Of a stretch of DNA of 64,000 nucleotides, positions 2,682 through 6,739 are shown piece by piece (the first letter of the stretch is position 1; every line of letters begins with the position of its first letter). The DNA is taken from NCBI RefSeq assembly GCF_016482825.1, contig NZ_JAEMNV010000002.1:434001-498000 (forward strand). The letters are read 5' to 3'. A program made the translations under genes and the position numbers. The DNA is from Antrihabitans stalagmiti. GTDB lineage: Bacteria > Actinomycetota > Actinomycetes > Mycobacteriales > Mycobacteriaceae. The notes beneath the pieces were generated by a model that worked only from the letters and a program-made list of their open reading frames with translations, had not been told where the DNA came from and ran no database searches.

Positions 2682-3905
2682 TCAGCGCAAAGCCTTCTGC
2701 AGGTTCTCGTCGAGGGCGCCGAGGAACTCCTCTGTCGTCAGATAACCCTGATCGCCGCCGACGAGCAGTGCGAGGTCCTTCGTCATCTGACCGCCCTCGA
2801 CGGTGGTGATGACAACGTCTTCCAGCGCCTGCGCGAAGCCGATCACGTCGGGCGTGCCGTCGAGTTTGCCGCGGTGCTCCAGTCCACGGGTCCACGCGAA
2901 GATCGATGCGATCGGATTCGTCGAAGTGGGCTTGCCGGCCTGATGCTGCCGATAGTGCCGCGTGACCGTACCGTGCGCCGCTTCGGCCTCGCAGGTCTTG
3001 CCGTCCGGGGTCAGCAGCACCGAAGTCATCAGACCGAGCGAGCCGAAGCCCTGGGCGACCGTATCGGACTGCACGTCGCCGTCGTAGTTCTTACAAGCCC
3101 AGACGTAGCCGCCCTCCCACTTCATCGACGACGCAACCATGTCGTCGATGAGACGGTGTTCGTAAGTCAGTCCGGCGGCGTCGAATTCGGCCTTGAACTC
3201 TTTTTCGTAGATGTCCTGGAACGTGTCCTTGAACTGGCCGTCGTACGCCTTGAGGATCGTGTTCTTCGTGGACAGATACACCGGATAGTTCTGCTGCAGG
3301 CCGTAATTCAGCGAGGCCCGCGCGAAGTCGATGATCGACTGATTGAAGTTGTACTGCCCCTGCACGACTCCGCCGAGGCTTTCCTCTGTGAAGTGCACCA
3401 GCTCGTGCTGGATCGGTTCGTCGCCGTTGTCGGGTGTGTAGGTGATGGTGACCGTGCCGGGGCCCGGGACTTTGAAGTCGGTCGCCCGGTATTGGTCGCC
3501 GAAAGCGTGGCGACCGATGATGATCGGCTTCGTCCAGCCAGGGACCAACCGCGGCACGTTGGAGATGATGATCGGCGCACGGAAGATTGTGCCGCCCAGA
3601 ATATTTCGAATTGTGCCGTTGGGTGAACGCCACATCTTCTTGAGGCCGAATTCCTCGACCCGGTCTTCGTCGGGAGTGATGGTCGCGCACTTGACGCCGA
3701 CACCGTGCTTCTTGATGGCGTTGGCGGCGTCGACCGTCACCTGATCGTCGGTCTCGTCTCGATGTTCGATGCCGAGGTCGTAGTACTCGAGGTTCACGTC
3801 GAGATAAGGATGGATCAGCTTTTCTTTGATGAACTGCCAGATGATCCGCGTCATCTCGTCGCCGTCGAGTTCGACGACGGTGCCTTCTACCTTGATCTTC
3901 GACAT
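2682..3905 (-). CDS. icd: NADP-dependent isocitrate dehydrogenase
   Basis: Oxidatively decarboxylates isocitrate to 2-oxoglutarate in the TCA cycle, producing NADPH. At 407 residues it is the dimeric, eukaryote-like type, close to mycobacterial Icd1: N-terminal [19 protein letters not shown], substrate-loop SPNGTIRN, and the [12 protein letters not shown] and cofactor-binding region near the C-terminus. The ATG of MSKIKVEG is chosen because it fits the family N-terminus and is preceded by a GGAGGA; the frame extends upstream without support. It is divergent from metY, as icd1 is in M. tuberculosis. Confidence 0.95.
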
Positions 3906-4116
3906 GGGTGTTTCGCGTCCTCCTGAGAAGGTCTTCCCTCGGTGCTGCGGCCGCGAACGCACCTTGTGAGTGCGTTCGCGGCATCAACAGTCAACGTATA
4001 CGGCTGCGCCTGTCAGCGTGTCGATCAATGCTAAACATGACGGCCGTCCGCGTTGGAACACAATCTGCCAACCCCGGTAGTTCGATTCTTCGGAGCGGAC
4101 ATATACGATGTTCGCC

Positions 4117-4215
4117 AGGTCACGAGCATCAGCGACAAGCCCCGGCTCGCTGGTCGGCAACCCTCCTTCGCGGCGGGGTGCCCCGGGTGATGACAAGGCC
4201 CTCGACAGTCGAGAG
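4117..4215 (+). promoter_or_regulatory. SAM-IV riboswitch
   Basis: The sequence matches the actinobacterial SAM-IV aptamer nearly base for base from memory: an opening GGTCA-like P1 strand, the AGC-rich P2 side, the conserved core AAGCCCCGGCTCGCTGGT followed by CGGCAACCCTCC, then GGCGGGGTGCCCCGGGTGA and TGACAAGG closing P1. SAM-IV elements in this order sit before metY/metC genes, as here (start of metY 4308). It should reduce metY-metX expression when S-adenosylmethionine is abundant. Boundaries are approximate. Confidence 0.9.
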
Positions 4216-4240
4216 CAAGCGCGCCGTAGGAGGTTTCAAA

Positions 4241-4261
4241 ATGTGTTGCTGTAGCGGATAG
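4241..4261 (+). CDS. poly-cysteine leader peptide (uORF)
   Basis: A six-codon frame, ATG then three successive cysteine codons, Ser, Gly and a TAG stop (peptide MCCCSG). It is preceded by a perfect TAGGAGG Shine-Dalgarno seven bases upstream, far better than the one before metY. It lies between the SAM-IV aptamer and metY. Short poly-Cys frames before sulfur-metabolism genes are known in mycobacteria as cysteine-sensing attenuators: ribosome progress through the Cys codons reports charged tRNA-Cys. That role here is inferred from position and sequence. Confidence 0.7.
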   Translation: MCCCSG

Positions 4262-4307
4262 ACCCCATCCCCGCCCCGCATTCCCATTACCTTTCTCTGG
4301 AGTTCCC

Positions 4308-5603
4308 ATGACTGAATCCGTTGCGCCCGAATGGTCTTTCGAGACCAAGCAAGTTCACGTCGGCCAGGTCCCCGACGGCACGACCAACGCGCGCGCACTG
4401 CCGATCTACCAGACCACGTCGTACACGTTCAACAACACCGACCACGCCGCAGCCCTCTTCGGACTTGCCGAGCCGGGCAACATCTACACCCGCATCATGA
4501 ACCCGACTCAGGATGCCGTCGAACAGCGCGTCGCGGCACTCGAAGGCGGCGTCGCAGCACTGCTCGTCGCATCGGGTCAGGCCGCCGAGACCTACTCGAT
4601 CCTGAACATCGCAGGTGCCGGCGACCACATCGTGTCGAGCCCTCGCCTCTACGGCGGCACCTACAACCTCTTCCACTACTCGCTGCCCAAGCTCGGCATC
4701 GAGGTGTCGTTCGTCGAAGATCCGGACGACCTCGAGCAGTGGCGCGCCGCCATCCGCCCGAACACGAAGGCCTTCTTCGGTGAAACGATCTCGAACCCGA
4801 AGAACGACATCTTCGACATCCCCGGTGTCTCGGCTGTCGCGCACGAGTCGGGTATCCCGCTCATCGTCGACAACACCGTCGCGACGCCGTACCTGATCCA
4901 GCCGCTGAAGCACGGCGCCGACATCGTCGTGCACTCCGCGACGAAGTACCTCGGCGGTCACGGCACGGCCATCGGCGGGGTCATCGTCGACGGCGGCACG
5001 TTCGACTGGACTCAGGGTCGCTTCCCCGGCTTCACGACACCCGATCCCAGCTACCACGGTGTCGTGTTCGCCGATCTCGGCGCGCCGGCCTTTGCTTTGA
5101 AAGCCCGCGTCCAGTTGCTCCGCGACCTCGGTGCGGCAATATCGCCGTTCAACGCCTTCCTGATCAGCCAGGGTATCGAGACCTTGAGCCTGCGGGTAGA
5201 GCGTCATGTGCAGAACGCCAAGGCGGTCGCCGAGTTCCTCGAAGCCCGTCCTGAGGTGACGTCCGTTGCCTACGCGGGCCTGCCGTCGTCGCCGTGGTAC
5301 GAGCTCGGACAGAAGCTCGCGCCGAAGGGCGCAGGCGCGATCGTGGCATTCGAGGTGGCCGGTGGCGTCGACGCGGGCAAGCGTTTCGTCAACGCGCTCA
5401 CGCTGCACAGCCATGTCGCTAACATCGGTGACGTGCGTTCACTGGTGATCCACCCGGCTTCGACGACCCACTCGCAGCTGACTCCCGAGGAACAGCTCGC
5501 ATCGGGCGTCACCCCTGGTCTCGTCCGTCTGGCAGTCGGCATCGAAGGTATCGCCGACATTCTTGCCGACCTCGAGGTTGGGCTGACGGCGGCAGCATCT
5601 TGA
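4308..5603 (+). CDS. metY: O-acetylhomoserine (thiol)-lyase
   Basis: A PLP enzyme of the Cys/Met metabolism family that makes homocysteine from O-acetylhomoserine and sulfide (called MetC or MetZ in some mycobacterial annotations). The 431-residue length is typical of MetY. The PLP lysine is K213 in [11 protein letters not shown], and the N-terminal YQTTSY and [10 protein letters not shown] motifs are present. A GGAG precedes the ATG. The TTGA overlap with metX shows translational coupling: the next two steps of the pathway share one mRNA, preceded by a SAM-IV riboswitch and a Cys-rich leader. Confidence 0.95.
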
Positions 5604-6739
5604 CAGTGAGTAAATCTCGAGCAGCACGTCCGGAGGCGGTTCTGCCGCCTCCGGACGGGCGGCTCGGCAGCGTGTCGATCGGCGAGGTCGTACTCGAAAG
5701 CGGCGCAGTGATTCCCGAGGTCACCCTCGCGGTCCAACGCTGGGGCGCGCTGTCTCCGAACAAGGACAACATCGTGCTCGTCGAGCACGCGCTGACCGGT
5801 GATTCACACATCACCGGTCCCGCGAACTCCGAGCATCCTTCACCCGGTTGGTGGAACGGCATGGTCGGGCCAGGCGCACCGATCGACACCGACGAATGGT
5901 GCGTCGTTGCAACCAACGTGCTCGGCGGCTGCCGCGGCACCACGGGCCCGGGTTCGATCGCACCGGACGGCAAGGTGTGGGGTTCCCGTTTCCCCGAAAT
6001 CTCGATCCGCGATCAGGTCACCGCCGAAATCGCTCTTGCCGATGCGTTCGGTGTCGACCGGCTCGCATCGGTCGTCGGCGGATCCATGGGCGGCATGCGT
6101 GTGTTGGAGTGGATGGTCGGCGCGCCCGACCGCGTGTCCTCCGCGCTTGTGCTTGCCGTCGGGGCTCGCGCGACTGCCGACCAGATCGGCACACAGACGA
6201 CCCAGATCGCAGCGATTCAGGCCGACCCGGACTGGCAGGGCGGCGACTATCACGGCACCGGCCGCACTCCGACGACGGGCATCGGCATCGCCCGCCGCAT
6301 CGCACATCTGACCTACCGGACCGAGTTCGAACTCGACCATCGTTTCGAGAACTTCTCGCAGGAGGGCGAAAACCCCTGGGAGGGTGGGCGTTACGCGGTC
6401 GAAAGTTACCTAGAGCATCAGGCCGAGAAGCTGATCGCACGGTTCGATCCCGCGACCTACGTCTTGTTGACCGAGGCGATGAACCGACACGACGTCGGTC
6501 GCAACCGAGGTGGCGTCGAAGCAGCACTTCGTGCGACACACGTGCCGTGTGTGGTCGGCGGTGTCGACTCCGATCGCCTGTACCCGCTGCGGACGCAGCA
6601 GGAACTCGCAGATCTTCTACCGGGTTGTCGTGGGCTGGAGATCGTGCATTCGAAGGACGGTCACGACGGCTTCCTCACCGAAGCCACAGCAGTCGCGACG
6701 TTGCTCGACGAGACGATGGAACTCGCGCGCCGAGGTTAG
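5600..6739 (+). CDS. metX: homoserine O-acetyltransferase
   Basis: Activates homoserine with acetyl-CoA, supplying the substrate of the preceding MetY. The 379-residue protein has the alpha/beta-hydrolase fold of the MetX family: nucleophile serine in [12 protein letters not shown], aspartate in [10 protein letters not shown] and histidine in SKDGHDGF close to the C-terminus. The TTG start overlaps the metY stop in TTGA; a GTG two codons later is the alternative. The gene ends 10 bp before the convergent DUF3017 gene. Confidence 0.95.

Follow-up and report, generated by a model that had tools for sequence, protein, structure and literature searches.

In the Salmonella mgtA leader, the proline codons of mgtL are combined with Mg2+ sensing. 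Mycobacterial polycysteine leader ORFs are reportedly leaderless, and the Cys-rich leader ORFs of Mycobacterium smegmatis are said to be attenuators. Translation attenuation by upstream ORFs (uORFs) of this kind is stated to control the cysteine genes of M. smegmatis (PMC13236596), and the 2005 study of Cys leaders reports no conserved RNA structure upstream of methionine operons and proposes, weakly, a pyrimidine-rich stretch as a Rho site for mycobacterial cys leaders (PMC1262725). A further motif with tandem Cys codons, uORFC-8-2, lies upstream of Rhodobacterales cysS, and attenuation has been proposed for it (PMC8632094). As to the RNA sensors, the SAM-IV aptamer carries PK-2 at its 3' end (PMC6890682), and in M. 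avium a SAM-IV element lies upstream of an O-acetylhomoserine sulfhydrylase, MAV_4315 (PMC3774663). The M. tuberculosis M-box is described as a riboswitch acting on uORFs, with Rho-dependent termination and a pyrimidine-rich stretch; its uORF1 contains several Cys codons counted as rare, and deletion of codons from uORF1 raised expression 2.5-fold (PMC12810186). In the Sinorhizobium metA leader, the SD of the SAM-II riboswitch is needed though translation starts 74 nt downstream (PMC9373788).

The open-licence PMC papers searched describe SAM-IV and Cys leader ORFs separately, as well as riboswitch-uORF pairs for Mg2+ and B12; no description of a SAM-IV/Cys-uORF pairing was found in them, in agreement with an earlier note on the present DNA, which had called such coupling not commonly described. 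Here we analyse this pairing upstream of metY in Antrihabitans stalagmiti, in a stretch of 64,000 nucleotides (the window), and across its relatives. Our main reading, to which we assign a probability of about 0.6, is that of a two-sensor leader in series, responding first to S-adenosylmethionine (SAM) and then to Cys-tRNA, with metY set downstream.

Results

Locus architecture

The leader and the genes that follow it are composed of the following features:

4118..4227, + strand: SAM-IV riboswitch aptamer (cmscan RF00634, full model 1-116; 96.5 bits, gathering threshold 38, E-value 1.3e-17)
4220..4223, + strand: putative PK-2 3' strand CGCG, pairing with the P3 loop (assigned by position)
4227..4233, + strand: Shine-Dalgarno (SD) TAGGAGG of the uORF, read from the sequence; it leads the first SD-led start past PK-2
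4241..4261, + strand: Cys leader uORF, ATG TGT TGC TGT AGC GGA TAG, that is MCCCSG and stop (sequence, conservation in relatives)
4262..4298, + strand: C-rich, G-poor spacer, a possible Rho-entry (rut-like) stretch, by composition over 34 leaders
4299..4302, + strand: metY Shine-Dalgarno GGAG, 5 nt from the ATG and weaker than the uORF SD (sequence)
4308..5603, + strand: metY, bifunctional O-acetylhomoserine/O-acetylserine sulfhydrylase (NCBIfam NF005872, 862 bits, cut-off 703)
5600..6739, + strand: metX, homoserine O-acetyltransferase (NCBIfam NF047917, 604 bits, cut-off 475; ORF list), with a listed TTG start and a GTG close by that is also possible

The distances are 4 nt from the PK-2 strand to AGGAGG, 7 nt from the SD to the uORF ATG, and 46 nt from the uORF stop to the metY start. 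The layout read from the sequence by the earlier note (aptamer, TAGGAGG, 7-nt gap and six-codon MCCCSG frame) is exact. A consensus scan of window positions 3950-4320 found neither a sigma-70-type promoter nor an intrinsic terminator.

Four SAM-IV elements are present in the 6.39-Mb assembly of this genome, before metY, metH, a rhodanese-MetZ pair and a class-V aminotransferase-like gene (the names other than metY being our reading of the translations), and only after the metY element does an SD-led uORF hold two Cys codons or more. The other three, at 1501-1618 of L001 (aminotransferase-like), 1501-1616 of L002 (rhodanese-MetZ) and 1501-1616 of L003 (metH), have no Cys uORF by this rule. A bare ATG/GTG-Cys-Cys-Cys string occurs at 27 places in the genome vs. 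26 for a reversed control pattern; among the 25 of these 27 places that were examined, AGGAGG precedes the metY one only, and a four-base SD-like match was seen in 4 of the 24 others. We therefore rejected the other poly-Cys frames of the genome as background, the string being about as common as its control; what sets the metY frame apart is where it lies and that it is conserved, rather than the string itself.

Conservation across relatives

The survey covered 66 family genomes, 63 of which carry at least one SAM-IV match (134 in total); by tblastn the next gene was classed as metY in 52 cases, metX in 6, aminotransferase-like in 39, MetZ in 14, metH in 1 and other in 22. This sample and a second one of 401 family genomes were drawn automatically, and gene starts in the leader surveys are approximate. 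The aptamer is followed by an SD-led uORF whose first eight positions include two or more Cys in 29/58 metY/metX leaders vs. 1/76 other SAM-IV leaders (Fisher p 3e-12, in a test that ignores relatedness); among 11,600 first-order Markov shuffles, such a uORF arises in 0.2%. With the requirement lowered to at least one Cys, the corresponding values are 36/58, 2/76 and 2.3%. The earlier note held that its proposal would fail were the Cys run to be absent from relatives that keep the aptamer; the run is kept in many aptamer-bearing metY/metX relatives within one large genus group.

A stricter search for the SAM-IV core and RTGTGYTGY separated by 37-67 nt matched in 56/401 family genomes and 6/31 genera, and its reversed control, read by eye from the table, in 3 genomes; four positives (G251, G277, G144 and G230) were left out of the closer look, G230 resembling a chance match. 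An SD-containing pattern applied to 84,980 species yielded 83 stretches, and by hand count the 80 listed comprise 66 from Nocardia, 6 from Rhodococcus, 3 from Antrihabitans, 1 each from Skermania, Actinotalea and a MAG named "Mycobacteriaceae bacterium", and 2 chance matches. A SAM-IV element was confirmed by cmscan in 8 of the 10 pattern loci tested. The two stretches rejected as chance are L262 and L245, and cmscan finds no SAM-IV in either. As a short SD-led ORF with clustered, conserved in-frame Cys codons, the reading frame behind the aptamer resembles a Cys leader peptide in sequence. Judged by comparison of the leaders, a SAM-IV aptamer, an SD-led uORF under in-frame Cys selection and a C-rich spacer are kept together in many genera.

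The uORF as the probable output of the aptamer

In leaders that carry a uORF, the SD-led start nearest downstream of PK-2 is that of the uORF, apart from a few exceptions that stem from the rule; in 13 uORF-less leaders it is that of metY/metX itself; by the rule used, no SD-led start was found past PK-2 in three leaders (L126, L115 and L144), and a few rows of this survey were caught by TTG or by other frames. In compact leaders (the window, Nocardia, Skermania) the uORF start lies about 22-27 nt from the beginning of the PK-2 strand. Since the uORF owns the first ribosome-binding site (RBS) past the aptamer, this site would be the natural riboswitch output, and the claim that the uORF occupies the RBS adjoining the aptamer stands.

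Folding predictions for this site, which the earlier note supposed the aptamer fold might mask or expose, are mixed. The SD is open in the consensus of 49 leaders, and single unconstrained folds often pair it (one accessibility row being NaN). In the window, unconstrained folds leave it mostly paired (0.17-0.20 unpaired), apparently with the 5' strand of P3, in which case the effect of SAM could be opposite to the one assumed below. In the 49-leader consensus, the PK-2 strand is also predicted, weakly, to pair with AUGUGU, both strands being conserved for other reasons. A candidate anti-SD formed by a hairpin after PK-2 was rejected, with mean energies over 29 leaders of -6.67 kcal/mol for own pairs vs. 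-6.57 for swapped pairs and -5.48 for a shuffled RBS. In the Rhodococcus opacus group (L199-L205 type), the start codon of the uORF falls, in a consensus fold, within a small stem closing over the SD, with no covariation to judge it by.

We assume that SAM acts here as an OFF-switch, on the grounds of the biosynthetic role of metY and of the stated rise of M. tuberculosis metC in methionine starvation (PMC9232105). At the first step of the proposed mechanism, SAM would close PK-2 beside the uORF SD and keep ribosomes off, and low SAM would admit them. At the second, the ribosome would read Cys codons, mostly the less used TGT and few codons before the stop, and would linger where Cys-tRNA is scarce. 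At the third, the ribosome on the uORF would decide the fate of metY, most likely in a tna-like manner: a lingering ribosome would shield the C-rich spacer from Rho (or hold the metY start open), a leader that has no ribosome, or soon loses it, would leave the spacer exposed, and metY would be highest with SAM and cysteine both low. Of the two sensors in series suggested by the earlier note, the comparative part holds (conservation of aptamer and Cys uORF, in-frame Cys), and translation, stalling and the responses to cysteine and SAM are what we infer.

From the uORF to metY

RNAalifold gave no conserved structure linking the uORF and the metY start in 49 Nocardia-type leaders (-0.4 kcal/mol) or in five Antrihabitans/Skermania leaders (-1.6 kcal/mol), so a hairpin attenuator is not supported in these two sets. 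A hairpin between the Nocardia uORF RBS and an anti-SD in the spacer, good by eye in single sequences, was dropped when RNAalifold showed essentially no structure over the 49 leaders. Six near-identical Rhodococcus leaders yielded a consensus fold (-25.8 kcal/mol) in which the start region of the uORF is paired, with almost no covariation to judge it by. As to composition, the spacers (n=34) average 0.43 C and 0.24 G, and C exceeds G more than twofold in 10/34 of them vs. 0/16 uORF-less leaders and 1/75 other SAM-IV flanks. This composition, strongly skewed in the said 10 of 34, would be consistent with Rho entry, of the sort proposed for the mycobacterial cys leaders (PMC1262725) and reported for the M. 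tuberculosis M-box (PMC12810186).

The same link can be read in the other direction. Ribosomes that have finished the uORF might feed metY by re-initiation or stop-start overlap; low Cys-tRNA would then detain them close to the start of the uORF and lower metY, sparing sulfide for cysteine synthesis, and high SAM would lower it as well. Such a positive relay would agree with the lack of a masking hairpin in most leader sets, with the presence of the weaker GGAG of metY itself, and with a few leaders in which the uORF is extended and its stop overlaps the metY start as ATGA (L120 and L167 of genus g6, and L267 of Rhodococcus tibetensis) or in which the stop lies 3 nt from metY (Nocardia panacis L218); the stop-start overlap suggests positive coupling and the opposite cysteine sign. 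Against it, most leaders have a spacer longer than re-initiation would favour (the median being 74 nt over the 34 leaders with at least 25 nt), and the Cys-rich leader ORFs of M. smegmatis are described as attenuators (PMC13236596). We consider the relay doubtful, though it is the strongest of the competing explanations.

Within the two-sensor reading, we are least sure of the direction in which cysteine acts. We lean slightly towards low cysteine raising metY, in view of the naming of MetY as a bifunctional O-acetylhomoserine/O-acetylserine sulfhydrylase and of the attenuation statement for M. smegmatis; that low cysteine lowers metY appears rather unlikely.

Selection on the Cys codons

When Cys is not demanded, 40/58 metY/metX leaders have an SD-led uORF that begins with ATG and runs to no more than 35 codons (the remaining 18 having none), and 36 of these 40 contain Cys within the first eight residues. 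Cys is the commonest residue at uORF positions 2-7 (79 occurrences). TGY triplets in the 40 uORFs number 82 in frame vs. 4 and 2 in the other two frames, which indicates that selection acts on in-frame Cys codons.

Among these codons TGT outnumbers TGC by 75:10, and by 222:14 in 78 named loci that were selected by pattern, whereas genes favour TGC (TGT:TGC 526:1235 in 80 named loci and 72:152 in the genes of the window; the Fisher tests ignore relatedness). The less used TGT codon would sharpen a stall. This bias could also mean that the UGU run is kept for reasons of RNA, either because it leaves the initiation region unstructured or because something binds it, rather than for the reading of Cys-tRNA. 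An explanation of this kind is hard to reconcile with the in-frame excess (82 vs. 6 out of frame) and with the shift of the Cys place among genera, in which the frame is kept with different nucleotides and positions (MCCCRR, MCSCHE, MCRDC, MRCRHC, MSRCR, MMCCSS), including genus g29 with its longer uORFs and Cys cluster at the end (e.g., MRASLHPLTRCCCR and MRPEMCHCC). We regard it as quite improbable.

Evolutionary history

The MetY tree comprises 51 rows (the fragment L061 being left out), with SH-aLRT support only and a midpoint root for drawing. All 33 Cys-uORF rows fall within one group of 37 (SH-aLRT 99), and none of the 14 rows outside has a Cys uORF. The Cys-uORF label requires 3 changes on this tree vs. 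a mean of 15.0 in shuffles, none of 500 being as low. The four non-Cys rows inside the group are two from g29 without a uORF and two from g8 with another conserved uORF, MWYPS... In the latter (L141 and L146), the MWYPS... uORF occupies the same slot after SAM-IV and ends with a TGA that overlaps the GTG at which metY begins.

An initial impression that g29 has no uORF (2/2 rows) proved wrong in a set of 25 g29 genomes, a non-random set, with 14 extra places taken as the best-scoring listed matches, that was classed by eye under a looser rule without SD demand. Ten of the 25 leaders carry a uORF with at least three Cys and two carry one with a single Cys (L031 and L327, the latter read by eye with a GTG start), all with 137-198 nt from PK-2 to the gene; 11 have no uORF and a PK-2-to-gene distance of 52-76 nt, and two, perhaps decayed, keep the long distance but have no Cys uORF. 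The grouping on the MetY tree together with these leader lengths suggests that the uORF is ancestral to the group and was probably deleted in part of g29.

The opposite loss, that of the gene, is seen in Nocardia. Among 39 pattern-selected loci without a metY match, 35 have metX next (some genomes being counted twice) and four have neither gene. In L056, L188, L248 and other Nocardia loci, metY is deleted or a remnant (remnants being visible in L188 and L248), and the aptamer, the uORF and the SD that follows are retained before metX.

That metY is controlled by SAM-IV alone, with a uORF that is translated but does not itself regulate, is very unlikely: aptamer lineages without a uORF do exist (18/58 leaders), but Cys conservation in 33 of the 37 group rows and the separate assemblies described below would be difficult to account for if the uORF had no function.

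Separate assemblies on other genes

The pair is also found on other genes. In Actinotalea solisilvae (Cellulomonadaceae; L208, about 3272-3450), a SAM-IV element of 87.5 bits is followed by AGGAGG, MCCCRH and stop, and MetN/MetI-like genes. In genus g28 (L160, G030:C1:393481), SAM-IV is followed by a GTG-led MCCCRGIRHSG with stop and then by an ABC substrate-binding-like protein; of the 76 SAM-IV leaders of genes other than metY/metX, this one alone has a uORF with two or more Cys, and g28 also has a metY leader with MCCCRQ. The MetN/MetI-like and ABC names were assigned by eye. The Actinotalea leader also shows, by eye, a G+C-rich inverted repeat directly past the uORF stop. These two assemblies suggest that SAM-IV and the Cys uORF work as a module.

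Discussion

A broader proposal, on which we are evenly divided, is that the direct client of SAM-IV in these leaders is a ribosome-read cysteine sensor rather than the enzyme gene. The arrangement would be an ancestral SAM/Cys-tRNA relay of a large Mycobacteriaceae group, with separate assemblies in Actinotalea, on MetN/MetI-like genes, and in one further genus, on an ABC transporter gene; some lineages would have lost it when the uORF was deleted and metY moved into its slot. Two counts tell against the reading of two sensors in series: 29 of the 58 metY/metX leaders have no two-Cys uORF, and the MetY rows outside the large group (14/14) have no Cys uORF at all. If the broader proposal is true, an annotation that makes metY the direct target of these SAM-IV elements is mistaken about what they act on first. 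The pairing would let the cell weigh the end product (SAM) as well as the sulfur donor (cysteine) before methionine synthesis. Such a widespread pair, often with a uORF of six codons and with natural variants with and without the uORF in sister lineages, makes a riboswitch/leader-peptide combination directly testable.

As compared with known systems, the leader described here does not appear to be leaderless (the Canestrari type of polycysteine ORF), its uORF lying behind a 110-nt aptamer and being led by AGGAGG. It resembles the Salmonella mgtA leader in having two sensors in series, one a structured RNA and the other a leader peptide in which a single codon abounds, and differs from it in ligands, genes and phylum. 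With the cys-operon leader ORFs (PMC1262725), it shares a short uORF, a Cys run near the stop, a pyrimidine-rich stretch that may be a Rho site and the absence of a conserved terminator hairpin, and is partly of the same family; unlike those ORFs, which stand alone before cys/cbs genes, the present uORF is SD-led and is placed behind SAM-IV and before metY. Likewise, it has the full-length aptamer, the PK-2 at the 3' end and the downstream sulfhydrylase gene of a known SAM-IV element (RF00634; cryo-EM in PMC6890682), with the difference that the first RBS belongs to the Cys uORF and not to the enzyme gene.

Other riboswitch or uORF leaders overlap with it in part. The M. tuberculosis M-box is a Mg2+ sensor with a poorly conserved uORF1, for which no cysteine sensing appears to have been proposed (PMC12810186). 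The M. tuberculosis B12 riboswitches, which share the combination of riboswitch and uORF translation, have a B12 aptamer and no Cys-codon sensor, and a search of the text of that paper returned no mention of SAM-IV or Cys (PMC11260477). The Sinorhizobium metA leader has SAM-II and no Cys uORF (PMC9373788), and uORFC-8-2 is an alphaproteobacterial motif with an intrinsic terminator, no riboswitch and a preference for UGC (PMC8632094). Both halves of the metY leader are known already, and it is their pairing on one transcript that appears to be new, as judged from the open-licence PMC papers.
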